Origin: Sphingorhabdus sp. EL138
Lineage (GTDB): Bacteria > Pseudomonadota > Alphaproteobacteria > Sphingomonadales > Sphingomonadaceae
Length of the DNA: 64,000 nucleotides
Reading direction: 5' to 3'
Assembly: GCF_945862485.1 (NCBI RefSeq)
Contig: NZ_CAMAYF010000005.1
Span: forward strand, 62,001-126,000
Positions 48,826 to 63,792 of the stretch are shown one piece after another. The notes under the pieces are model-generated. The model was given only the letters and a program-made list of their open reading frames with translations, had not been told where the DNA came from and made no database searches. The position numbers were made by a program, and so were the translations under genes. Each line of letters starts with the position of its first letter. Within the stretch, counting starts at the first letter, position 1.

Positions 48826-50211
48826 ATGCGGGCTACTACGCCGACAGCCGTTAAAACTGATACGCCATCAAAGTTGCCTCTTTGGCGGCAGCTATATGTG
48901 CAAGTGCTGGTCGCCATCTTCCTGGGTGCTTTGTTAGGGTATCTCTATCCCGATATCGGTTCTGCCTTAAAGCCGCTGGGTGATGGCTTCATCAAATTGG
49001 TCAAAATGATCATTCCGCCGGTCATTTTTCTCACCGTCGCAACCGGAATTTCGGGTATGCGCGATCTGTCGGCTGTTGGCAGCGTAGCTGGGAAGGCATT
49101 CGCATATTTCTTTTTCTTCTCGACGCTTGCACTGATTATCGGTCTTATGGTCGGCAATATCGTACAGCCCGGTGCTGGCCTAAATATTGATCCCGCCTCG
49201 CTCGATGCCAGCAAAATAGCAGATTATGCCAAAACATCAGAGGGGCAGACGATTGCTGGCTTTGTGCTTAACATAATTCCAGAGACTTTATTCAGCGCCA
49301 TGACCAGTGGCAATATATTGCAGGTGCTGCTTGTCGCTATACTGACCGGGCTCGCGCTGTCTGCCACGCGCCCCCATAGCGATTTGGTGCTCGACGTCCT
49401 TGCCTCGTTCAATGTGGTGATTTTCAAGCTCGTTCACATGTTGATGAAATTGGCCCCAATCGGGGCGTTTGGAGCGATCGCGTTCACGATTGGCGAATTC
49501 GGTATCGCCTCGCTTGCTAACCTCGCAGCTCTAGTGGCTACTTTCTATGTTACCTCGCTGCTGTTCGTGGTCATCGTACTTGGCGCCGTTGCATTTTTCA
49601 CCGGGTTCTCCATTTTTAAAATGATCCGTTATTTGCGTGAAGAACTCTTGCTGGTGCTTGGCACGTCGTCTTCCGAAGCTGCACTTCCCAGCTTGATGGA
49701 GAAGATGGAAATTGCTGGCGCACGGAAGTCGGTAGTGGGCTTGGTTGTACCTACCGGCTATTCATTCAATCTCGATGGCACCAATATATATATGACGTTG
49801 GCCGCTTTGTTTATCGCCCAAGCCGTAGGCATAGATCTTTCCATGTCAGAACAATTGGCTTTGGTTTTGGTTGCAATGATAAGTTCAAAAGGCGCTGCTG
49901 GTGTTACAGGTGCAGGATTTGTGATCCTTGCAACAACGCTGTCAGTCGTACCCTCGGTGCCTGTCGCAGGCATGGCGCTCATTCTTGGCATTGACCGATT
50001 CATGAGCGAATGCCGGGCACTTACCAACTTCATCGGCAACGCTGTCGCCACAATTGTTGTTGCACGTTGGGAAGGCGCGCTGGACACAGAACGTCTGGCC
50101 GCAGCGATGGCAGGAAAACCGATACCTTTACCGGAAGAAGATATTGAACGACACGAACGCAGCGGGCCGCGCAGCGAAGCGCTCGCAGAAACGTTGGGTG
50201 AAGCGACTTGA
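48826..50211 (+). CDS. dctA: Dicarboxylate/amino acid:cation symporter (DctA/GltP family)
   Basis: [90 protein letters not shown]. Confidence 0.93.
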
Positions 50212-51152
50212 TCGCGCGGCGGACATTGCTGCAAAACCTCGCTGTGCTGACCGCGATAGTTGCTGTGCAATTTAGCACGGCTGCGCCTGCATTAGCTAAT
50301 GCGTGGGAGGAAATTCCCTTATGGCCAGGCCAGCCGCCCGGCAAGGGCGGGACAACTGGCCCTGAGAAGCTGGGCGGAACAGGTGCTGGTTTTGGCGCGC
50401 TATCAAACATCTCAACCCCGCGCATGCGCGTGTATCGGCCCGCAAAGCCGAACGGAGCGGCTGTATTGGTATGCGGCGGAGGAGGTTATTTCAGGATCCA
50501 GCTGTGGAAAGAAAGCACGCCCATCGCACAATGGTTGCAGGAACGCGGCTTCACGGTATTCGAGCTTCTTTATCGCCTACCAAACGATGGCTGGGAAGCC
50601 TCGGCACCTTTCATGGACGCGCAGCGGGCGATGCGTATCATTCGCACTAAAGCTACGGAATTCGGCCTAGATCCAAAACAGATCGGCATCATGGGTTTCT
50701 CGGCCGGTGGTCACCTTGCTGGGTTTACGGCATATCAGCCCGAACGTCAGCTTTACACTGGGTCCGACACGTACGAAAAAGTAAGCGCAAGGCCCGATTT
50801 TGCAGCGTTGCTGTTCCCTGTGGTATCACTGCGCCGACCTTATGATACGACGCGCACCCGTCGAGAGATTGTAGGTGAGAACCCCTCTACAGAGGCGGAA
50901 ATTGCTTGGTCCCTTGACACTTATGCTAGCGCCGACGCTCCGCCGACAATCATCTTTGCATCTGCCGATGACAAGACCGCGCCGCCTGGGCATGGCATCA
51001 TGCTTTTTGAAAAACTCAATGCCGCGGGCGCTTCGGCAGAGCTGCATTTGTTTCGGGACGGTGGCCATGGCTGGGGCCTAGGCCTGCCCAATCAGGTGTT
51101 GAGCCAGTGGCCGGCAATGTTTATCAAATGGTTTAATTCGCTAAAAAGTTAG
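50208..51152 (+). CDS. Secreted alpha/beta hydrolase (esterase/acetyl-xylan-esterase-like)
   Basis: Signal peptide; [24 protein letters not shown] (GxSxG), DGGHGWGLG catalytic His region. TTG start overlapping the dctA stop. Confidence 0.85.
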
Positions 51153-51168
51153 AAAACAAATAGGGAGA

Positions 51169-54100
51169 ATGAAGATGGCATCCAGATTGTTCCGAAAGCT
51201 GGCGTTGCTCAGCACGACAGGGCTAATGACGGCGACTATGGCGCACGCACAAGATGCAAGCACTCCGGCGGTCCAGTCTACCGAGGAAACGGAGGCGACA
51301 ATCGTCGTTACCGGTTCACAAATTCAAGGCGCGCAGATTAATGATGTCCTGCCGGTAACTGTGCTCGATGAACAGCAGATTGAGAATACAGGTGCGTCGT
51401 CAGGTGACGAGTTGTTCCGCTCCATTCCGCAGGCCGGAACCGTTGCCTTCAATGAGCAAAACGCAACTACGCAAAACAATGTGCGTGGTGACGTTGGTTC
51501 GGTGAACCTGCGTGACCTGGGAACGGGCAATACCTTGTTGCTGATGAACGGCCGCCGGATGAACTTGCATCCCGGCTTTCAAACAGAGTTACTAGTACCC
51601 GTTGTCAGCCCTGACACTAACGAAATTGCACCTGGCAGCGTACGTCGGATCGAAGTTTTGCGCGACGGCGCTTCCGCAATTTACGGGGCCGACGCAGTCG
51701 CAGGCGTCATAAACACCGTGCTCAAGGGTAATATGAAGGGCGGTTTCTTGGAGACCGACTGGCGTGCTTCTGACGGCACCAGCCTTTACAGCTATTCCAT
51801 CTCCGGAGGGCTCGGTTTTGATTTTGGCGGCGGGCGCGGTAATTTGACCATGTATGGCGGCCATTTTCATGAAAATGGTCTTGGTGCGCAAAAACGGGAT
51901 TATTCGCGCGACGATGATCGCACGCGATTGCTGTTGGGAACCGATTTCGAAGGGGAAGCCTCGTTCAACAACCGCAACACGTTCGGGCCGTTCGGGCAAT
52001 TCGATATTCAGACATCACCCAATAGCCGAACGCCGATAAACGACGACGATTTCTATCTGCAGCCAAGCTCGTTCACAGGCTGCCGTATGGATTTCCGCAA
52101 CGGCATCTGTGCGCGTAACGGAGAAACACCAACGACTGCGGTGCGTTATAACACCATATTCGGCAACACGCTTATCAGTGGCAAGGACCGCTACAACGCG
52201 ATGGCATTGTTTAACTATGAACTGAGCGACAGTGTGGAAGCATATTTTGAAGGCAGCTATTATCGCTCTGAAAATAAGCGCCTTAATGATGCATCCGCTA
52301 TTCTTAGCGCGGTACCCGTGGGCATTGCGCGCACCGCCTATTGGAACCCATTTGGCCCAACAACATTGGCCGGCGGCGTTGCCAATCCCAACCGCCTACC
52401 TGGCACAACTATCCCAAGTACTGGTGCTGATGTCATTATGGAACGGTATCGCTTTGTCGATGCTGGCAACCGTGCTGTGCTTGTTGACAAGGACGCATAC
52501 CGGCTTGTTGGTGGTCTCCGCGGCAATTTCGGCGCTTGGGAGTTCGACACTGGCTTTGTCTATTCTGAGTCAAAGGTCACCGATCTCGAAACCAACCGCG
52601 TTTCTCTTACCGCCATGCAGCAATCGATTAATCGGACCACGTCTGATGCCTATAATCCCTTCAACGGTGGCTGCATCGAAGATCCAGGCCAAGGCGATTG
52701 TACCCCGAACCCAGCATCGGTTATCGACACGTTCCGCATTAATGTGTCTCGCGTAGGCGGCACCAGCTTGGCGCTTGCCGATTTCAAGATCAGCCGCGAT
52801 GACCTAATCGCGTTGCCCGCTGGAAATCTTGGCGTCGCGACGGGCGTCGAATGGCGACGCGAAACCTTTTATGATGATCGCGATGCACGGCTGGACGGGA
52901 CAATAACGTTCACCGATAGCGTAACAGGCGTATTCAACGGCAGCGACGTCGCAGGTACCAGCCCGTCGCCAGACACCGATGGAACGCGCACCGTCTATTC
53001 TGCTTTTGCGGAAATATTCGTTCCAGTGGTCAGCAGCGACATGAATATCCCGCTGGTTGAGGACTTCAACGTTCAGATGGCTGGACGGATTGAGCGCTTT
53101 GAAGACATTGATGCAACTGCCGTGGTTCCGCGCGTTGCCGCGTCATGGACCACTATCCCCGGCGTAACTTTCCGCGGCGCTTGGTCGCAAGGCTTCCGCG
53201 CGCCTAATCTGGTGCAAGTCAACGACGACGGCACGACCCGGTCCAATACCCGTGACGATTTCGTGGTTTGCCAGGCACAGGTCCGCAAAGGCCTCTTATC
53301 GAGTCTAGACGCCTGCCCAGGGGCCGGTGTGATTAGCTTCCGTTCGGGGGCGCGTAGCCTCAAGCCGGAAGATAGCGAGAGCATCAACCTTGGAATCGTA
53401 TTGGAACCAAAGTTTATGCCGGGGCTGACGCTGACTGCAGACTATTGGCAGGTTAAGCAGACCGCGTTGGTTGGCACATTTGGTGACGACAACGCGATTG
53501 CGCTTGACCTTCTGCGTCGTCTTGGTGGCAGCACTAATCCGAACGTCATTCGCGCTGCGCCAACTGCGGATGACATTGCGCTGTTCACCGGCACTGGCCT
53601 CACCCCAGCAGGTAAGATTGTGCAGGTCCTTGATCCTTATCTGAACCTCGACAGCCGCGTGTCAAAGGGTTGGGACATTGGCATGAATTACAAAGTGCCA
53701 GATTTTGGGATCGGGCAGTTCCGTCTCCGCCTGAATGCCGCAAGATTGAAAAGCTTTGTTCAGTCTGCTGGCGTTGACGGCGAAGAACTGCTTGCCGGAA
53801 TTGCTGCTGGCAAACTACCGGCCGACGTTACTGTTGGCGGATTGGGCGAATTGCTCGAGATTGATGGCCGTCCCAAATGGCGGGCAAGTGGATCCGTAAA
53901 TTGGGAGAGCGGTCCTTTAGAAATTGGCCTGTTCGGTCAATATACGGGCAAGATTTGGGACACCAGCGTCGTACGCGATATTCTTTTGGTATCCGACGAT
54001 CCAAATGCTAATTTCTACAGAGTGAAAGACCAATTCCTTACGAACCTATCGGTTTCTTATACGATTGATAACGATACCGCGCTGAGCGGAACGCGTTTGA

Positions 54101-54225
54101 GATTTGCTGTTAACAACCTGTTCGACAAGGACCCGCCGCTCGCAGACGAGACTTATGGTTTCTACAGCGAGTTGTACACAGCGCGCGGGCGTGTCTTTCA
54201 CGTCGAACTTCGCAAGAAATTTTAA
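51169..54225 (+). CDS. TonB-dependent receptor
   Basis: Signal peptide, plug domain (ATIVVTGSQIQGAQINDVLPVTVLDEQQIENTG...RRIEVLRDGASAIYGADAVAGVIN), C-terminal LRKKF aromatic end. Confidence 0.95.
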   Translation: MKMASRLFRKLALLSTTGLMTATMAHAQDASTPAVQSTEETEATIVVTGSQIQGAQINDVLPVTVLDEQQIENTGASSGDELFRSIPQAGTVAFNEQNATTQNNVRGDVGSVNLRDLGTGNTLLLMNGRRMNLHPGFQTELLVPVVSPDTNEIAPGSVRRIEVLRDGASAIYGADAVAGVINTVLKGNMKGGFLETDWRASDGTSLYSYSISGGLGFDFGGGRGNLTMYGGHFHENGLGAQKRDYSRDDDRTRLLLGTDFEGEASFNNRNTFGPFGQFDIQTSPNSRTPINDDDFYLQPSSFTGCRMDFRNGICARNGETPTTAVRYNTIFGNTLISGKDRYNAMALFNYELSDSVEAYFEGSYYRSENKRLNDASAILSAVPVGIARTAYWNPFGPTTLAGGVANPNRLPGTTIPSTGADVIMERYRFVDAGNRAVLVDKDAYRLVGGLRGNFGAWEFDTGFVYSESKVTDLETNRVSLTAMQQSINRTTSDAYNPFNGGCIEDPGQGDCTPNPASVIDTFRINVSRVGGTSLALADFKISRDDLIALPAGNLGVATGVEWRRETFYDDRDARLDGTITFTDSVTGVFNGSDVAGTSPSPDTDGTRTVYSAFAEIFVPVVSSDMNIPLVEDFNVQMAGRIERFEDIDATAVVPRVAASWTTIPGVTFRGAWSQGFRAPNLVQVNDDGTTRSNTRDDFVVCQAQVRKGLLSSLDACPGAGVISFRSGARSLKPEDSESINLGIVLEPKFMPGLTLTADYWQVKQTALVGTFGDDNAIALDLLRRLGGSTNPNVIRAAPTADDIALFTGTGLTPAGKIVQVLDPYLNLDSRVSKGWDIGMNYKVPDFGIGQFRLRLNAARLKSFVQSAGVDGEELLAGIAAGKLPADVTVGGLGELLEIDGRPKWRASGSVNWESGPLEIGLFGQYTGKIWDTSVVRDILLVSDDPNANFYRVKDQFLTNLSVSYTIDNDTALSGTRLRFAVNNLFDKDPPLADETYGFYSELYTARGRVFHVELRKKF

Positions 54226-54229
54226 TGCG

Positions 54230-55420
54230 ATGCGGCGGGCAGGAACTTGGTTATCGCTCGCCGCGTGGATAGGGATCGGGTCGGTTGCACATGCGCAGCC
54301 ACCCGCCACCCCAGCTTCATCTGTTTCCAAACCTACACTGTCTGGTTGCAATACAGCGAAAGCTAGCGTTAAATTTGATTTTGAGGGCGCGTCCCGCTCT
54401 GTCTGTTATGTGGAGAGTGAACGGACGCTATCAATTTTAGTGACACCCGAACACCTACCACCAATTAACCCAAGCCCATGGTATGCCTTTCGCTACAGCG
54501 CGGAGGAAGGCGGCAATCTAACGGTTCACGTGCGCTACCTTGGCGCACGCCACCGTTATGCACCAAAATGGCGAGGACGTGGTGACCCTTCGGCGCTTTC
54601 CGTTGTGGTTGCCAAAGACGCCAGTTCGGTGTCAATTACACTGCCGCCGGGCGAAGGTGTTGTCAGTGGCCAGCCGCTTTTGACAAGTGTTCATTACGAC
54701 AATTTGCTTGCACAGCTTACGAAAAATGGGGGCGGCAGCCGGATTGTGATTGGCCAATCACACGATAGACGCCCTATTGAGGCCGTTCGTCTGGGTTCTG
54801 CTGATGCGCCGCGCCTTGTGCTTATGTTGGGCAGGCAACATCCACCTGAAGTGACGGGTGCGTTCGCGATGGACGCCTTTGTGCTTAAGATTGCAGATCT
54901 GGTCCGTAACGGCTCCATAAACGGAAAAGAATTTCAGTTTCTGATTGTCCCTTTACTCAATCCCGATGGCGTAGCCCGGGGGCACTGGCGAGGTAATCTA
55001 GGCGGGACTGACCTCAACCGCGATTGGGGTATTTTCAAGCAGCCGGAAACGCGCGCGGTCAATGATTGGCTGGCTTCGCTACCGGCACAAGTAAGGCCGG
55101 CTTTAATGCTCGATTTTCACTCCACTAACCGCAACCTCTTCTATGTGCAGGGTGACGAAGCTAATGCGCAAGGCAAGGCGTTTCTAACTGCATGGCTCGT
55201 GGGTAAGGAGAGCGCCTTTGCGGGATATCCATTTAAGATTGAGCCACGCGATGCCAATCCCGGTTCGGGTACGACAAAGAATTGGTTCAGCGCGACATAT
55301 GGTATTCCGGCATATACCTACGAGGTCGGAGATGATTCAGACCCTGCAGCAGTTCGCGCTGCAGCGGAGGCGTTGGCTCAAAATTTGATACCATCTCTGG
55401 ATATGTCGCCTAAAGAGTGA
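54230..55420 (+). CDS. M14 family zinc carboxypeptidase (cytosolic-carboxypeptidase-like), secreted
   Basis: HPPE zinc motif (LGRQHPPEVTGAF), NPDGVARGHWRGNLGGTDLNRDW, LDFHSTNRN, YEVGDD; N-terminal beta domain NPSPWYAFRYSAEEGG; signal peptide. Confidence 0.88.
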   Translation: MRRAGTWLSLAAWIGIGSVAHAQPPATPASSVSKPTLSGCNTAKASVKFDFEGASRSVCYVESERTLSILVTPEHLPPINPSPWYAFRYSAEEGGNLTVHVRYLGARHRYAPKWRGRGDPSALSVVVAKDASSVSITLPPGEGVVSGQPLLTSVHYDNLLAQLTKNGGGSRIVIGQSHDRRPIEAVRLGSADAPRLVLMLGRQHPPEVTGAFAMDAFVLKIADLVRNGSINGKEFQFLIVPLLNPDGVARGHWRGNLGGTDLNRDWGIFKQPETRAVNDWLASLPAQVRPALMLDFHSTNRNLFYVQGDEANAQGKAFLTAWLVGKESAFAGYPFKIEPRDANPGSGTTKNWFSATYGIPAYTYEVGDDSDPAAVRAAAEALAQNLIPSLDMSPKE

Positions 55421-55471
55421 AGCAAGGGCATGTGCGCAGGTGAGATACTCAGCTCAATCTGGGGATTTTGA

Positions 55472-56374
55472 ATGCGCGTTCCAATGACCCATCGCCTCGC
55501 AGCGATCCTAGCTTGTCCCTGGGCGTTTTTTGCACCAACGTCGGCAATTGCCAAAGAGTGCGTACCGCTTGCTGACGGATCGTCGCAGATTGTTTTCTCT
55601 GGCTGGGCAGGTCCTAAACTGCCTGTCTTCGTGCACAAGCCGAGAATAGCTGGGGCCGATAGCAGGATTGTTTTTGTCATGCATGGCGTGCAACGTGACG
55701 GCGACCGATATAGAGACGAATGGCGCGATCTGGCCGAAAAGCACAATCTTATAGTCGTTGCGCCGACTTTTGGCAGAACAGATTTTCCCACTACAGGCTC
55801 TTACAATCTCGGCAACATAGTCGATGAGAAAGGCCGAAAATCACCTAAAGAAAAATGGTCATTCTCCGCAATCGAGCCGTTGTTCGACCACATAGTTTGT
55901 CGTGTGTCTGGTAACCAACGGGGTTATGCGCTCTATGGTCATTCTGCAGGTGGGCAGTTCGTTCATCGCTATGTAGCCTTTGCCGATGCGCCCCGAATGG
56001 AAGTCGCAGTTGCCGCCAATTCTGGATGGTACACGATGCCTGATAATGGTGCTTTTCCTTATGGCTGGGGCGGCGATGTGGCAGGACTGGTTTCGCCCGC
56101 GGCGGCGTTTCAGCGACCGCTAACCATCTTGCTGGGAACTGAAGATATTGATCGTAACGATCCTAACCTGCGCATCAATGAGCAGGCTGACAAACAGGGG
56201 CGGACGCGTTTTGACAGGGGGCACGGTTTTCTGACCGCTGCAAGGAAGGAGGCAGGCGAGGCCTCGCTGATCAGCTGGAAGATCGCCTATGCACCTGGGG
56301 TCGGGCACGACAATGGTCGGATGGCTCCGTTTGCCATTCCTCACCTGTTAGCCACAACTGGAAGTAACCGTTAA
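55472..56374 (+). CDS. Secreted alpha/beta hydrolase, PHB-depolymerase/poly(aspartate)-hydrolase-like
   Basis: Signal peptide; VFVMHGVQRDGDRYRDEW, YALYGHSAGGQFVHRY (GxSxG), TILLGTEDIDRNDPN. Confidence 0.7.
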   Translation: MRVPMTHRLAAILACPWAFFAPTSAIAKECVPLADGSSQIVFSGWAGPKLPVFVHKPRIAGADSRIVFVMHGVQRDGDRYRDEWRDLAEKHNLIVVAPTFGRTDFPTTGSYNLGNIVDEKGRKSPKEKWSFSAIEPLFDHIVCRVSGNQRGYALYGHSAGGQFVHRYVAFADAPRMEVAVAANSGWYTMPDNGAFPYGWGGDVAGLVSPAAAFQRPLTILLGTEDIDRNDPNLRINEQADKQGRTRFDRGHGFLTAARKEAGEASLISWKIAYAPGVGHDNGRMAPFAIPHLLATTGSNR

Positions 56375-56652
56375 GGCCAATACTGTTATTGGGCACAAAG
56401 CAGAACGGCTACAATTGGGCCGGAAGCTGACTGACTGGTTTTTCTGATAGATGAGAAAAAGCGGACTAATCCAAACCTTTGGCGTATATCAATACACAAC
56501 GCTACGCCGAACTGCCATCCGTCAAAACGAAGGTCGATATGGCCGATTGGCAAAAATCTCTATGTAGGTCAACAATGTATACAGGCCATTGCATGTCAGA
56601 CGCTATCAACGTCCAGCAAGCACGTGGGATAACTCTAGGGCGGCTATGGCAG

Positions 56653-58071
56653 TTATTGCATGAAACCCAAATTAGCGCCGTTAAACCGGCCAATGTTGGG
56701 TGAGATGCTGGGTAATTCGCTAGGTGCAACGCCGAACCAAGTGGCCAGTGTTGCGGCATATTGATCCACTGAGATTGTTGGGAGCAAACGGCCAACGCCG
56801 ACTTGGTCTGGACTTCTAACGGAGATTTGTGGAGCGACGCCGTAATAGCGGCCGCCGTTAACCGCGCCACCCATGATGAAGTGATGTGCGCCCCAGCCAT
56901 GGTCGGAACCATCACCATTCGACTGCAGCGTGCGGCCAAAATCGGAGGCTGTGAATGTGGTCACTTTGTCAGCGACACCCAATTCCACGGTAGCGCGATA
57001 AAAAGCGTCCATTGCGAAGTCGACACGGTCCATCAGCGTTGCATGCCCCACAATCAAATTGTCGTGATGGTCAAAGCCGCCCAAGTTTACCATAAACACT
57101 TGGCGCTTTACGCCTAGCGCTTGGCGAGCAGCGATCAACCGCGCAACAATTTGAAGCTGGTCAGCTAAAGTGTTGGTACCGGACACTGGCCGGAATGACG
57201 TGGCAAGCGATGTCGGTTGGAGCGCCGCATTGACAACAGTTTCTGCATCAATGGAGCGGCGTGTTACCCTATTATATTCAGCTTCAAACATATTGTTGCT
57301 CGACTGCGTCAACAACGTGCGAAGGGCGTTGCTGCCCGCCGTAGAGCCGAATAAGGGGCTCTTGAGACCACTGATAGAAGTCGCCCCCGCTGTCGAGATT
57401 TGATAGGTAAACGCGTCTTTCCCAGCCAAAAACACGGTATTGCCCGCCGCCGAAATGCACGTGAACAATGAATTTGTGTTGCTGGACAAGGCTAGGTCCC
57501 CCATGCGGCCACCCCAGCCGTCTGTGGAACCTTCGGGCTTAGACGACTGCCATGTAGATTGTTGGTCATTATGCGAAAACAATTTCGCAGGCCGGGGGTT
57601 TGCGACCCAATTGCTGCTTTGATATTGGGCCAAAGTTAATGGCGCAATAAGTGGACCAACATTTAGCAATGGTGCAATTTTACCTGCATCAAACAAAGCT
57701 TTCATGCGGGTCATTTGCGGGGCGAGCGCATATTGCACATTATTGGTCAGCACTTGGCCATTAGCGGGTGTGAGGGCAGTTGCCGCGAGAGACGAACGTG
57801 CTAAGGTAATGCCTCCTGCAGTTTGGCCAGGGCCGCCACCGCGAATGGCGCTATAAAGGTCGTAATTTGCCGAGTCATAGGGTATCAATGTACTGTTATG
57901 GTCATTGCCACCGTTTAGAAAAACGCAGACCAATGCGCGATAATCATTGCCTGCGCTGAAAGCGGCAGCCTCCCCCATGCCAGCAAGACCCATGGCCCAA
58001 GACCCTGCTGTCCCAGCCACGGCCAATTGTTTAGAACGGCGAAGGAAAGCGCGCCGTGACAAATCTTCCAT
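56653..58071 (-). CDS. DUF1501 domain-containing protein with Tat signal
   Basis: LSRRAFLRRSKQLAVAG twin-arginine leader; ALVCVFLNGGNDHNSTLIP, VFMVNLGGFDHHDNL, DHGWGAHHFIMGGAVNGGRYYG. Confidence 0.93.
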   Translation of the reverse strand: MEDLSRRAFLRRSKQLAVAGTAGSWAMGLAGMGEAAAFSAGNDYRALVCVFLNGGNDHNSTLIPYDSANYDLYSAIRGGGPGQTAGGITLARSSLAATALTPANGQVLTNNVQYALAPQMTRMKALFDAGKIAPLLNVGPLIAPLTLAQYQSSNWVANPRPAKLFSHNDQQSTWQSSKPEGSTDGWGGRMGDLALSSNTNSLFTCISAAGNTVFLAGKDAFTYQISTAGATSISGLKSPLFGSTAGSNALRTLLTQSSNNMFEAEYNRVTRRSIDAETVVNAALQPTSLATSFRPVSGTNTLADQLQIVARLIAARQALGVKRQVFMVNLGGFDHHDNLIVGHATLMDRVDFAMDAFYRATVELGVADKVTTFTASDFGRTLQSNGDGSDHGWGAHHFIMGGAVNGGRYYGVAPQISVRSPDQVGVGRLLPTISVDQYAATLATWFGVAPSELPSISPNIGRFNGANLGFMQ

Positions 58072-58096
58072 TTTGCTAATGTGCACGATACGCTCC

Positions 58097-59926
58097 CTAT
58101 TTTTGGACGAGATAATCGGGGGAAGCAAACACAAGAAGTGTCGCCAGATACACGCGTCGTTCCTTGTCTGCCACCGCACTGATGTCCGTGACGGTCGTCG
58201 CGTCAAGCGCGGCCTTGATAGTAGCTTTGGTGGTGTCGGTGAGCTGGTTTCCGGACAACAACAAGGACAGCCTGTTAAGTAAGGCCGCAGTGTCGGAAAC
58301 GATAGCTAACTCACGCGTATAATTGGCTTTAACGTCATTGTTCAGGCCGTTGACTGATCCGATGGCTGAAGCCATGAAGTTGATGTAGCCGGCAACACTG
58401 ACTTCGGTAACGATTTGGAATTCAGGTGCGACAAGCGCGTTCGTAGCAATGGCCGTGTTCGCAGGGACGTAACCCGGACGGTAAAAATTGAATACGGACG
58501 GCGCACGCAAAGGGCTTTGCCCAAGACTGGTGGCAGGATTGGACAGATTTGCGATGATCCAATTACCTGATCGCGATGTGGCACCGAAATTTCGGGCCCA
58601 TTGCGTAAAACGCAGCACGGGCTCGCGTACTTTACCAAAGGTCGGCGACGTCAACCCAGCCGCATTTGTGGCTTCATCATCCAGCAAAATGGCCTTGAAA
58701 ACCGCGCGCAAATCGCCACGAACGCCAGAACCATTATTGTTAAATATCTTGGCAACACGATCAACATAACCAGCGCTAGGGTTACTGGTCACCAAACGCT
58801 GGATCATTTGTTTTGAAAAGAAAGGGCCAACATTGGGATGGTTAAAAAGTGCGTCCAGCGCCAGTTTCATGGATGTTGGGGCATCAGTGTTGGCCGGAAT
58901 AGTTGTGCCCAGAAATGTTTTTTCCAACATGGAATGTTCGCTGCTGGTCTGCGGCCTTGACCATCTGGTCGGGTCGCTTGTCATTGGCCTGATTACAGAT
59001 TCTAACGGCGCTACCAATGTTGATGGCACACGGACAGAAGGTGTTCTGACCAAATTCGAATAGTCGTAACTATAACCGGTAAATACGCGCGCGAGGTTCG
59101 ACACATCGGAACTAGTATATGTTTCGATGGGCTGACCAGTGGTTCCGAGTTTTTTGGTGCCGTCATTATTCAGCTCATTCAAACCAATGGTGAAAAGCTG
59201 CATGACTTCACGCGCATAATTTTCGTCGGGTACGCGACCAGTCCGCGTATCTTCTTTCTTGTTATCGAGTGTGCTCAGGTAAACGCCCATTGCGGGGTTG
59301 AGTGTTACATCTTCCAGTAACTGACGGAAATTACCCAGAGCATGGCGGTTGAGAACGTCCCAGTAAGCCGCCATAGCATTCGACCGCCATGTGATTTCGA
59401 TGCCGTTGGTGGATACGACAAAAAACTGGGAAAGCGCGTACGCCAATCTTTTACGCACGGGGTCGGGGCTGGTGATCAACTGGTTCCAGACCATATAATC
59501 GGCGAACACGCTATTGTTGTAAAATTCTTCGGTGGTGACTTGATCATAACCGCGCGATGAAAGCCATGCGACACCCGTCTGGCTAATCGGAATGTCCATC
59601 TGCTTATCGAGCCAGGCCACATATCCTACAGATCGGATATCCGCGATTTCGGTTTCAGTCGCCGCAAGACTGGCCTTCAAAATGAAACGGACTGCTTCGC
59701 CATCTGTCGTGGGCTTAGCGACTTGCACCGTTGGTCCAAAAATAGAGGTATTTGAATTCCCGTCAGCGCCTCCGCCACCACATGCGGCTAGGGCCAATGA
59801 TGCAGCGGGAATAGCAAAAATGGCGGGCGATTTTTCCCGGATAATTTCCTGCGACGCAGCGAAAGCGTCATCGGAGACGTCAAATTTTGTTGGCCCCTCA
59901 AGAGCCGCGCATTCAGCTTGCGTCAT
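58097..59926 (-). CDS. DUF1800 domain-containing protein
   Basis: AVRFILKASLAATETEIADIRSVGYVAWLDKQM, NYAREVMQLFTIGLNELNNDG, HPNVGPFFSKQMIQRLVTSNPSAGYV. Confidence 0.93.
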   Translation of the reverse strand: MTQAECAALEGPTKFDVSDDAFAASQEIIREKSPAIFAIPAASLALAACGGGGADGNSNTSIFGPTVQVAKPTTDGEAVRFILKASLAATETEIADIRSVGYVAWLDKQMDIPISQTGVAWLSSRGYDQVTTEEFYNNSVFADYMVWNQLITSPDPVRKRLAYALSQFFVVSTNGIEITWRSNAMAAYWDVLNRHALGNFRQLLEDVTLNPAMGVYLSTLDNKKEDTRTGRVPDENYAREVMQLFTIGLNELNNDGTKKLGTTGQPIETYTSSDVSNLARVFTGYSYDYSNLVRTPSVRVPSTLVAPLESVIRPMTSDPTRWSRPQTSSEHSMLEKTFLGTTIPANTDAPTSMKLALDALFNHPNVGPFFSKQMIQRLVTSNPSAGYVDRVAKIFNNNGSGVRGDLRAVFKAILLDDEATNAAGLTSPTFGKVREPVLRFTQWARNFGATSRSGNWIIANLSNPATSLGQSPLRAPSVFNFYRPGYVPANTAIATNALVAPEFQIVTEVSVAGYINFMASAIGSVNGLNNDVKANYTRELAIVSDTAALLNRLSLLLSGNQLTDTTKATIKAALDATTVTDISAVADKERRVYLATLLVFASPDYLVQK

Positions 59927-60139: not shown

Positions 60140-60748
60140 ATGATCAACAGGCGCTTCACCCCCTCGTTTTGTGCAGTTTTTCTTCTCGCGGGATTGTGCT
60201 CGGGTGCGCACGCAAACGTTTTCGAACGTAGGCAAAATGGCAATCTCGTCGAAATATCTAAGCCGGCATGGCGGTCGGACGCGTCGCCGGATGTCGGCGA
60301 TCGATATGGTCCCAAAGCAGAGCCCGCATCTATCTCTTCCCAATCACAAAATGCCGTGCGGCAGCATATTCACGCCACGGCAACGCGCTTCGGCGTTGAC
60401 CGCAACCTGGTCGATGCCGTTGCTTGGCAAGAGTCACGATATAATCCGCACGCGCGCTCCACGGCAGGGGCGATAGGTGTGATGCAACTTATGCCCGGGA
60501 CTGCGCGGCAATTGGGTGTCCGTAACCCACATGATGTGGAACAGAATGTGGTCGGTGGGACAGCTTATCTGCGTCAGCAGCTTGAACGTTTTGGCAATAA
60601 CGTGCCGCTTGCTTTGGCTGCATACAATGCCGGACCCGGTGCAGTTATAAAATATGGCGGCATCCCGCCGTACCGCGAAACACAAGATTACGTCCGCCAA
60701 ATAATGCAACGTCTATCGGCAACGTCGACGTATCGCCCAGGATATTGA
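60140..60748 (+). CDS. Lytic transglycosylase (VirB1-like)
   Basis: VDRNLVDAVAWQESRYNPHARSTAGAIGVMQLMPGTARQLGV, AYNAGPGAV; first gene of the T4SS run. Confidence 0.92.
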   Translation: MINRRFTPSFCAVFLLAGLCSGAHANVFERRQNGNLVEISKPAWRSDASPDVGDRYGPKAEPASISSQSQNAVRQHIHATATRFGVDRNLVDAVAWQESRYNPHARSTAGAIGVMQLMPGTARQLGVRNPHDVEQNVVGGTAYLRQQLERFGNNVPLALAAYNAGPGAVIKYGGIPPYRETQDYVRQIMQRLSATSTYRPGY

Positions 60749-61074
60749 GGTTCATGATGACATATACATTCTCCCGTTTTTTCACCTTAGCTGCGTTGGC
60801 CTTTGCTCTACCCAAAACGGCGATGGCGCAGGTCGCTAATGTCGATCCGCAGGGTTCAGGGCCAATCGTCAATGCGCTAGGCTGGATACAGGGCACGCTG
60901 CTTGGCAATGTCGCAACGACGGCAGCCGTAATCGCCGTTGCCGTTGTGGGCCTGATGATGCTGACGGGACGCATGAACTGGCGCTTTGGTGCCACCGTCA
61001 TCATTGGCTGTTTCATTCTCTTTGGCGCCACAGCGATTGTCTCAGGTATTCGTATCGCCGCAGTTGGCGGTTAG
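60745..61074 (+). CDS. virB2: TrbC/VirB2 family type IV pilin
   Basis: Signal segment, then two hydrophobic helices (TAAVIAVAVVGLMMLTGRMNWRFGATVIIGCFILFGATAIV). Confidence 0.87.
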   Translation: MRFMMTYTFSRFFTLAALAFALPKTAMAQVANVDPQGSGPIVNALGWIQGTLLGNVATTAAVIAVAVVGLMMLTGRMNWRFGATVIIGCFILFGATAIVSGIRIAAVGG

Positions 61075-61077
61075 GCT

Positions 61078-61362
61078 ATGACCCCGCTGAACCGCACGCC
61101 GATATTCCGGGCATTAACACAGCCGCAGATGTTTGCTGGCGTTACCTATAGCTATTTTGTCATCAATCTGGTCGTTACTACCGAGATTTTCTTGATCACG
61201 CGTTCATTTTGGGCGATCCCGGCAGCCGCCATCATCCATGCTATTGGCTATATGGCGTGTTTGCGCGAGCCCCGGATTTTCGACCTCTGGATTACGAAAG
61301 TAAGCCGTTGCGGCCGTACGCGCACATATGATCTTTGGCGCTGCAACAGTTACCGGCCTTAA
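61078..61362 (+). CDS. virB3: VirB3 family T4SS protein
   Basis: TPIFRALTQPQMFAGVTYSYFVINLVVTTEIFLI...REPRIFDLW. Confidence 0.87.
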   Translation: MTPLNRTPIFRALTQPQMFAGVTYSYFVINLVVTTEIFLITRSFWAIPAAAIIHAIGYMACLREPRIFDLWITKVSRCGRTRTYDLWRCNSYRP

Positions 61363-61365
61363 TCT

Positions 61366-63792
61366 ATGAAAACGGTTGCCCAAAAAGCCTCAGCTTTGGA
61401 CCCCTGTGCAGGGGACCGTCTGCCTTATGCCGGGCATTTGGATGACCATACGGTTATGACCCGCAGCGGCGACTTGATCCAGATGATCCAGGTCGACGGT
61501 GTTGCTTTTGAAACTGCCGATAGTGAAACACTGAACCATATGGCGGCGGTGCGTGATGTTGTGATGCGCGGCATCGCAAACTCTAACCTGATGTTATATT
61601 GCCACGTCATCCGTCGTCAGGTGACTGCCGAACTATCGGGCGCGCAACCAGAGGGGTTTGTCCGTGACCTAGACGATGCGTGGCAGCAACAATTGCGCGG
61701 CAAAAGGCTCTATATAAATGACATAGTGCTAATGCTAGTACGTCGACCAGCCCGGGGAAAGATCGGCTTTTTTGACCGCCTCACCAAATGGGGCAATGGT
61801 ACACGCAACAGCGCCGAACGGCTGGCTGACCAAACGCGGGAACTGCGCGAATTGGATGCGGCACGTACCAACCTGCTTTCCGCCCTCAGCCGTTATGGCC
61901 CGCGCCTGCTGGGCCGCTATCAAGGTGCGAGCGGTATCTGTTCCGAACCGCTTGAGATATTGTCGGCTCTATATAATTGTGAAATGCAGCCCGTGCTTGA
62001 ACCCATGGGCGACGCTGGCCACTATCTGCCCTATAAGCGGATCAGCTTTGGCCTGGATGCTCTGGAATTGAAAGGCGCTAGCGCTAACACGTCGCGTTTT
62101 GGTGCCATTGTTTCCATCAAAGATTATCCTGCTTATACCGCACCGGGTATGCTCGATAATCTGCTGCGCCTGCCGCATGAGCTGACGATGACGGAGAGCT
62201 TTGCTTTCATCGACCGGCAGATCGCAGATGAGCGCATCGGGCTTGCACTGCGCCGGTTACGTGCGACCTCAGACGAGACTACGACCCTGCGCCAAGGCCT
62301 ACTGGGTGCAAAGGATGACCTTACGGGCGGAGCTGCGGCTTATGGCGAGCACCATCTGACTGTCCATGTCCGCGCTATGACCTTGGCCGCGCTGGATGCT
62401 GCCGTCGCCGACGTGCAAGCATCGCTGGCTGATATTGGGGCCGTTGCCGTGCGTGAGGATCTCAATCTTGAAAGTGCCTTTTGGGGTCAATTTCCCGGCA
62501 ACGCAGATTTTATTGCGCGCAAGGCATTGGTGTCGACGGCCAATTTGTCCGGTCTTATTTCGCTCCATGGGTTTCCGATTGGCATGCCTGAAGGCGGTCC
62601 ATGGGGTGAACCAATCACGGTGCTCGAAACGACATCCAGCACGCCCTATTTCTTTAATTTGCATAGCGGCGATTTGGGTAATTTCACGCTTATCGGGCCA
62701 TCGGGGTCGGGCAAAACGGTGGTGCTCAATTTCCTGATTGCGCAAGCGCAGAAGTTTTATCCCCGCACTTTTTTCTTTGATAAGGATCGTGGTGCCGAGA
62801 TTTTCATTCGCGCCATTGGTGGCCATTATGATGTCTTGCGGCCCGGAACGCCAACCGGTTTCAATCCGCTTCAACTACCCGAAAATGCAACAAATCAGGC
62901 GTTTCTGCGCCAGTGGTTATCGCAATTGCTTACGCCAGCGGGCGGGCAACTTACTGCCGATGAAAACGCGATTATCGCGAGTGCCGTGGATGCTAATTTC
63001 GGTCAGCCCACCGAATACCGCCAATTACGGTATTTGGTGGAGCTACTGGCTGGTGGCGCGCGTCCCATCCGTGGTGATCTCGCTTCGCGCCTTGCACCTT
63101 GGTATGGCTCGGGTGAGCATGCATGGTTGTTCGATAACTCAGCAGACCAGTTGAACCTTGATACAAGAACCGCTGGCTTTGACATGACGGCATTGCTCGA
63201 CAACCCAACCTTGCGGACGCCCGCGATGATGTATTTGTTCCACCGCGTTGATGAACGCTTGGACGGCAGCCCGTCCATGATTGTAATCGACGAAGGGTGG
63301 AAAGCGCTTGATGACGACATCTTTGTCCGCCGTCTGAAGGATTGGATGAAGACCATTCGCAAACGCAATGGGGTAGTCGGTTTTGCCACACAAAGCGCAA
63401 GTGACGCGATTGAAAGTAAGATTGCCGCGACCATCATTGAACAATCCGCCACGCAATTGTTCATGAGCAACCCCAAGGCACAAGCATCCGATTATTGCGA
63501 TGGTTTCGGCCTTACCGCGCATGAGCTGGATCTCGTGCGATCCTTGCCAGAACATTTGCGCTGCGTTTTGATCAAACAAGGCGGGAATAGCGTGGTTGCG
63601 CGTCTCGACATTGGCAATATGCCCGATGCAATCACCGTGTTGTCGGGCCGCGAAAGCAGCGTTCGTAAACTGGACGAACTGCGCCGCGTGCATGGTGATG
63701 CGCCGTCCGAATGGATGCCGATATTGTTGAAGGATGCGCAGGAAGTTGCATTGGCCCCGTGGTCAGCTGCAAAAACGGGAATGCATAGCTGA
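61366..63792 (+). CDS. virB4: VirB4 family T4SS ATPase
   Basis: FTLIGPSGSGKTVVLNFLIAQAQKF Walker A, MIVIDEGWKALDDDIF Walker B, GFATQSASDAIES. Confidence 0.95.
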   Translation: MKTVAQKASALDPCAGDRLPYAGHLDDHTVMTRSGDLIQMIQVDGVAFETADSETLNHMAAVRDVVMRGIANSNLMLYCHVIRRQVTAELSGAQPEGFVRDLDDAWQQQLRGKRLYINDIVLMLVRRPARGKIGFFDRLTKWGNGTRNSAERLADQTRELRELDAARTNLLSALSRYGPRLLGRYQGASGICSEPLEILSALYNCEMQPVLEPMGDAGHYLPYKRISFGLDALELKGASANTSRFGAIVSIKDYPAYTAPGMLDNLLRLPHELTMTESFAFIDRQIADERIGLALRRLRATSDETTTLRQGLLGAKDDLTGGAAAYGEHHLTVHVRAMTLAALDAAVADVQASLADIGAVAVREDLNLESAFWGQFPGNADFIARKALVSTANLSGLISLHGFPIGMPEGGPWGEPITVLETTSSTPYFFNLHSGDLGNFTLIGPSGSGKTVVLNFLIAQAQKFYPRTFFFDKDRGAEIFIRAIGGHYDVLRPGTPTGFNPLQLPENATNQAFLRQWLSQLLTPAGGQLTADENAIIASAVDANFGQPTEYRQLRYLVELLAGGARPIRGDLASRLAPWYGSGEHAWLFDNSADQLNLDTRTAGFDMTALLDNPTLRTPAMMYLFHRVDERLDGSPSMIVIDEGWKALDDDIFVRRLKDWMKTIRKRNGVVGFATQSASDAIESKIAATIIEQSATQLFMSNPKAQASDYCDGFGLTAHELDLVRSLPEHLRCVLIKQGGNSVVARLDIGNMPDAITVLSGRESSVRKLDELRRVHGDAPSEWMPILLKDAQEVALAPWSAAKTGMHS

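Follow-up and report, generated by a model that had tools for sequence, protein, structure and literature searches.

The operon and its genes

The window analysed here is a stretch of 64,000 nucleotides of Sphingorhabdus sp. EL138 DNA. It contains five genes in the same direction, with overlapping ends or short gaps between them, the last of which encodes the hydrolase under study:

48826-50211, plus strand: DctA, C4-dicarboxylate:cation symporter (NCBIfam PRK01663, 640 bits, above the cut-off of 513; Pfam SDF, 2.5e-108)
50208-51152, plus strand: exported BD-FAE family alpha/beta hydrolase, PaeX-like esterase (Pfam BD-FAE, 1.8e-20; NCBIfam PaeX, 196.9 bits, below the cut-off of 550)
51169-54225, plus strand: TonB-dependent outer-membrane receptor (TBDR), 1018 aa (Pfam TonB_dep_Rec_b-barrel and Plug, over cut-off)
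54230 (best start)-55420, plus strand: exported M14 zinc carboxypeptidase, CCP-like (Pfam M14, 1.8e-14)
55472-56374, plus strand: predicted exported PahZ1-type poly(aspartic acid) hydrolase (triad Ser158, Asp225, His279)
56360-56403, no strand: break, at which DNA homology to fused genes of relatives ends (56360) and inverted homology to L007 begins (56403)

The hydrolase gene comprises 300 codons, and we regard it as a real gene because homologues of its product in close relatives are 72-88% identical, the dN/dS ratio against the nearest relative is ~0.11, and the AlphaFold2 model is confident (pLDDT 92.2). The first-pass annotation had described an exported alpha/beta hydrolase of ~300 aa with two characteristic motifs, and all of these features are present: a 300-aa alpha/beta hydrolase, the N-terminal signal-like segment MRVPMTHRLAAILACPWAFFAPTSAIA (export signal judged by eye), and the motifs HGVQRDGDRYRDEW and GHSAGG. 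Its sequence suggests that the protein is secreted, with a periplasmic or extracellular location.

The start of the BD-FAE hydrolase gene overlaps the dctA stop by 4 bases, and the TonB receptor is 72-98% identical to its counterparts in related operons. We defined a poly(Asp)-use operon operationally as PahZ1 plus a second beta-aspartyl or exo-peptidase and a C4-dicarboxylate carrier within 10 kb, a combination found at 48826-56374 of the window. Compared with L006, identity along the operon is mosaic (98% for the TonB receptor, 83% for the adjoining BD-FAE hydrolase and 80% for PahZ1), which suggests recombination inside the operon. Carriage on a plasmid was rejected, as every plasmid homologue is <60% identical and none contains the whole fusion described below. 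Promoter and terminator scans returned sites no more numerous than in shuffled sequences. Further downstream, at 60140-63792, a lytic transglycosylase, a VirB2-like small membrane protein and a VirB4-like ATPase, all recognized by eye, mark where a set of type IV secretion genes begins.

The window hydrolase belongs to the PahZ1 family

In a sequence search of the PDB, the window hydrolase gave its best match with PahZ1 of Sphingomonas sp. KT-1 (6VE6, E 1.5e-64, 221 bits), followed by PahZ1 of Pedobacter sp. KP-2 (9O7U, E 5.8e-40) and, nearly equal to the latter, LpqC (3D0K, E 5.4e-39); beyond these three entries there was no further significant PDB sequence match. A structure search with the model returned the same top three in the same order, with TMt values of 0.93-0.95, 0.92 and 0.81-0.84, respectively, and the remaining hydrolases among the 50 matches listed reached ~0.6 or lower. 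In the structural alignments the protein shares ~43% identity with KT-1 PahZ1 and 31% with KP-2 PahZ1, and its fold, length and single catalytic domain agree with the PahZ1 family. The Pfam search yielded no family over cut-off, feruloyl esterases included, and the NCBIfam models for PHB depolymerases scored 29 against a cut-off of 150 bits (extracellular type 1) and 20.1 against 107.85 (esterase_phb). With all curated models below their cut-offs, we rejected the reading that the protein is a PHB depolymerase or a feruloyl esterase.

The PahZ1 tree (63 rows, with several deep forks weakly to moderately supported) places KT-1 PahZ1 inside a 23-row clade that also contains the window hydrolase, and KP-2 PahZ1 further out, beside two IadA-linked Bacteroidia. 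LpqC lies outside the PahZ1 clade, paired with L091 (support 100), although support for the deep forks between it and that clade is only moderate. Several positions, e.g., F105, P125, E127, F131, E135, P136, F138 and D139, are common to the window, KT-1 and KP-2 proteins but not to LpqC. The catalytic triad Ser158/Asp225/His279 is intact in the window hydrolase, with the serine in a GxSxG context; across the PahZ1 alignment (A1), D225 and H279 are invariant and S158 occurs in at least 90% of sequences, and Arg75, Arg166, Arg246 and Arg249 are likewise invariant in the family.

The first-pass annotation had guessed at a PahZ1-type enzyme, to be judged by comparison with PahZ1 and PHB depolymerases and to be given up if unrelated esterases were the best matches. 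The PahZ1 entries rank first in that comparison, and since sequence, fold and tree position agree, we consider the lead confirmed as homology. On these grounds, the window protein is a further member of the already known PahZ1 family.

Cleavage of beta-linked poly(aspartic acid) is known for two bacterial enzymes, the PahZ1 proteins of KT-1 and KP-2. KP-2 PahZ1 is an endo-type enzyme that cuts beta-amide but not alpha-amide bonds (PMC4456602). Its smallest substrate is a trimer, dimers being left undigested, and it cleaves on the carboxyl side of beta-L-Asp, best with D-Asp as the next unit (PMC4456602). By analogy, the window enzyme would act on beta-amide bonds in the same manner, and it very probably cuts beta-aspartyl amide bonds.

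The M14 carboxypeptidase

The M14 protein has a CCP architecture, i.e., an N-terminal beta domain and a catalytic M14 domain with HxxE, NR, H and E elements, and its zinc and catalytic residues (alignment A2; H204, E207, H297, N263-R264 and E365, counted from the Met at 54230) are intact. The nearest folds in Foldseek are bacterial CCP-like enzymes and CCP5 (4B6Z, 3L2N, CCP5), the last of which has been solved with Glu-peptide analogues. Lys350, 15 residues ahead of the catalytic Glu365, is kept in 30 of 30 M14 relatives and occupies what we take to be the specificity position 255 of carboxypeptidase A. A basic residue at this position would favour acidic C-terminal residues, for which the M14 enzyme may have a preference.

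PahZ1 neighbourhoods across bacteria

We compared 59 PahZ1 loci from Sphingomonadales, other Proteobacteria, Bacteroidia, Verrucomicrobia and one rumen Selenomonadaceae genome. The first-pass annotation had pointed to DctA and a carboxypeptidase as neighbours of the hydrolase; both genes are real, and their association with it recurs in other genera. The order DctA-TBDR-M14-PahZ1 is found in L059, L060, L061 and L073, at identities to the window of 41-45% for PahZ1, 36-37% for M14, 34% for the TBDR and 62-65% for DctA. Elsewhere the partners differ. A PahZ2-type M20 peptidase adjoins pahZ1 in L054, L055 and L058, and an IaaA-type Asparaginase_2 does so in L058 and L009; the neighbourhoods in L010 and L011 contain IadA (over the NCBIfam cut-off in L011), DcuC, DASS and a regulator, and L092 and L096 carry a lyase and DcuC. 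In L066, DASS and SDF carriers, M14 and TBDR genes are accompanied by a D-amino-acid dehydrogenase, a D-aminoacylase-like amidohydrolase and a signal-bearing lyase of the fumarase/aspartase superfamily.

At least one partner (PahZ2, an isoaspartyl peptidase, M14 or a C4-dicarboxylate carrier) lies within ~10 kb of PahZ1 at 34 of the 59 loci, whereas none of 20 control regions chosen from other parts of these genomes has one (Fisher p 2e-6, with loci that are not independent by descent). Co-occurrence of the PahZ1 and M14 families was observed in 24 of 401 family genomes, against 4.3 expected. That three unrelated C4-dicarboxylate carrier families (DctA, DASS and DcuC) and three to four unrelated beta-aspartyl or exo-peptidase families occur beside one enzyme points to a shared product, namely a C4 amino acid or C4-dicarboxylic acid released from a chain of beta-aspartyl units.

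A DctBD-DctA-BD-FAE-TBDR-M14 module without a nearby PahZ1 occurs in many genomes (L101-L112, L115 and L116). PahZ1 would thus be an addition to a broader module, the core substrate of which may be a different one; polymalate or other C4 conjugates are possible. Separately, L066 (9270-19901) and L117-L120 contain TBDR-M14-D-aminoacylase-D-amino-acid dehydrogenase clusters, some with a signal-bearing fumarase/aspartase-superfamily lyase, and their content suggests that they handle D-aspartyl or N-acyl-D-amino acid material.

A PahZ1-PahZ2 fusion in relatives and its apparent loss in the window lineage

The 80-88% identical proteins of close relatives are usually longer, the matching part being their first half, and in six of these relatives the window-type PahZ1 is naturally fused, as the N-terminal half, to PahZ2. 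The fusion is encoded in single frames of 714-731 aa (714 aa in L001, 723 aa in L051, 731 aa in G084 and G134), and in L002, L004 and L007 the PahZ2 half was found at the same offset. This second half is an M20 peptidase, 46-48% identical to an L058 protein (cluster C22) that in turn matches PahZ2 of KT-1 (7LJH) with E 1.5e-93. Another M20 cluster, C30 (L054/L057), was ruled out as PahZ2, as it matches other M20 peptidases. In the Sphingorhabdus type strain S. rigui DSM 29050 the operon is complete and includes the fusion. L071 (S. wooponensis) gave only a weak partial PahZ2 match.

No PahZ2 remnant was found in the window. DNA identity to L001, L002, L004 and L007 spans the operon and ends at 56360, 14 bases before the end of the hydrolase gene, and from 56403, 43 bases further on, the window matches at 92% the DUF1501/DUF1800 segment of L007, which is inverted there and lies upstream of dctA. 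By eye, a DUF1501/DUF1800-like pair occupies 56653-59926 on the minus strand of the window, right after the operon and in opposite orientation to L007. Taken together, the stop in homology and the inverted match indicate a rearrangement, by which the PahZ2 half appears to have been removed in the window lineage, precisely where the two halves join; it is possible that the break at 56360 is an assembly error. The window PahZ1 has accumulated 20 unique changes compared with 7 in L001, a mild acceleration. Its dN/dS values to both L001 and L002 are ~0.11, within the span of intact relatives, and by this measure the PahZ1 half is still under purifying selection. The window genome (G000) also carries a separate PahZ2 paralogue on contig C3 (56439-57401; L045, 1435-2600), which changes frame near its N-terminus and is either a pseudogene or the product of a sequencing error. 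The operon, the PahZ1-PahZ2 fusion and its partial loss are seemingly undescribed in the literature searched.

Proposed function and alternatives

Considering all of the above, we propose, with a probability of roughly 0.75 for the explanation as a whole, that the window gene encodes a PahZ1-family endo-hydrolase of beta-aspartyl bonds within a catabolic operon. In the proposed pathway, the TonB receptor would take up the polyanionic substrate, polymer or oligomer, through the outer membrane, and PahZ1, as a serine hydrolase, would make mid-chain cuts at beta-amide bonds between aspartyl units to yield short oligomers. The M14 carboxypeptidase would then trim these to monomers, a step for which relatives may use PahZ2, either fused or encoded nearby, or isoaspartyl peptidases, and DctA would import aspartate or another C4-dicarboxylate, with material flowing from the receptor through PahZ1 and M14 to DctA. 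Exopeptidases would be needed because PahZ1, as studied in KP-2, is endo-type and beta-only and leaves dimers. With the PahZ2 half apparently gone, PahZ1 of the window lineage would now work alone with the M14 enzyme.

Three other explanations were weighed against this proposal. We consider it unlikely that the PahZ1-type enzyme is a relic whose PahZ2 half was deleted and whose residual domain is drifting or has a minor role. The end of fused-gene homology at 56360 with inverted DUF1501/DUF1800 sequence 43 bases on, the relative-rate excess and the frame change in the separate PahZ2 copy are all compatible with decay, but the intact frame and triad and a dN/dS typical of intact relatives argue against it, and in other genera it is normal for PahZ1 to stand alone. 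It is quite unlikely, in our estimate, that the substrate is instead a beta-linked C4-dicarboxylate polyester, for instance beta-poly(L-malate), which corresponds to beta-poly(aspartate) with ester in place of amide bonds, with PahZ1 and the BD-FAE esterase cutting esters and DctA importing malate. Such a substrate would suit the C4-dicarboxylate carrier (over its NCBIfam cut-off), the esterase-like gene within the operon, the resemblance of PahZ1 to ester-cutting PHB depolymerases (PMC4456602) and the existence of polymalate-using bacteria (PMC9210645). It does not account for the amide-cutting M14, PahZ2, IaaA and IadA enzymes beside PahZ1 elsewhere, and the 43-kDa polymalate hydrolase of Comamonas is without serine-esterase activity (PMC9210645), unlike the window enzyme.

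That the protein is an LpqC-type PHB-oligomer or general carboxylesterase, resembling PahZ1 through common ancestry only, is very improbable. LpqC, which is named a PHB depolymerase, is indeed the third match in both searches; however, it groups elsewhere in the tree with L091, both PHB depolymerase models remain far below their cut-offs, and PahZ2 fusion and peptidase neighbours are out of keeping with PHB.

PahZ1 enzymes were purified for their activity on a synthetic polymer, poly(aspartic acid) produced thermally, and the literature searched (PahZ2, polyaspartate hydrolases, natural beta-poly(Asp)) gives no natural PahZ1 substrate. The conserved operon, which combines a PahZ1-like enzyme with an outer-membrane receptor, an importer of C4-dicarboxylates and an exopeptidase, suggests that a beta-aspartyl polymer or peptide found in nature serves bacteria as a nutrient, and makes the question of the natural substrate testable. 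We think it likely that the operon as a whole serves outer-membrane and periplasmic scavenging of such material. More tentatively, these operons might be horizontally variable and dedicated to a beta-linked aspartyl polymer of natural origin or to beta-aspartyl (isomerised, partly D-) peptides, with PahZ1 as the endo-enzyme and natural PahZ1-PahZ2 fusions as the most compact form. The relatives supply such fusion enzymes ready-made, and the operon serves as a marker for recognizing, from the genome, bacteria that can break down dispersants, hydrogels and scale inhibitors made of polyaspartate.

A second PahZ1-like neighbourhood was observed in L051 (11294-17370), L077 (3837-10384) and L085 (1827-8284). 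It contains a P-loop protein with a MobB-like domain and an outer-membrane barrel-like protein, joined by PGA_cap (CapA-like) in L051 and L077, an ABC exporter in L051, and HlyD with a 7TM/ATP-grasp ligase-like protein in L085. This neighbourhood may be a biosynthesis and export cluster for a linked acidic polymer, and it is tempting to speculate that, in some genomes, a PahZ1-like paralogue encoded next to an exporter and a CapA-like protein might point to the side that produces the polymer.

Comparison with known systems

The proposed system resembles the cyanophycin-scavenging clusters of non-producers, in which cyanophycinase, IadA/IaaA and a transporter occur together (PMC10206079), in that an endo-hydrolase is clustered with a carrier and an isoaspartyl peptidase. 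It differs in that PahZ1 cuts beta-linked and not alpha-linked aspartyl backbones; because published PahZ1 leaves alpha-amide bonds uncut and no cyanophycinase was found among the PahZ1 neighbours examined, we regard cyanophycin as an unlikely substrate. LpqC, a putative PHB depolymerase of Bordetella parapertussis, shares the fold, the triad positions and the motif HGVxRxGxxYRDxW with the window protein, but falls outside the PahZ1 clade and lacks the residues common to the window protein and both PahZ1 enzymes. The M20 metallopeptidase PahZ2 of KT-1 corresponds to the partner half in fused relatives of the window protein, whereas its family is absent from the window locus and the contig C3 paralogue is frameshifted in the assembly. 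KP-2 PahZ1 agrees in family and fold but is more distant in sequence, with the nucleophile motif GFSAGS in place of GHSAGG. The closest known counterpart is KT-1 PahZ1, which has the same fold, the catalytic Ser/Asp/His and the signature blocks WYTMPD, GHSAGG and WSFxxIEPxFD in common with the window protein; the two have diverged by 57% in sequence, and the window protein closes a TBDR/M14/DctA operon and stems from a PahZ1-PahZ2 fusion lineage.
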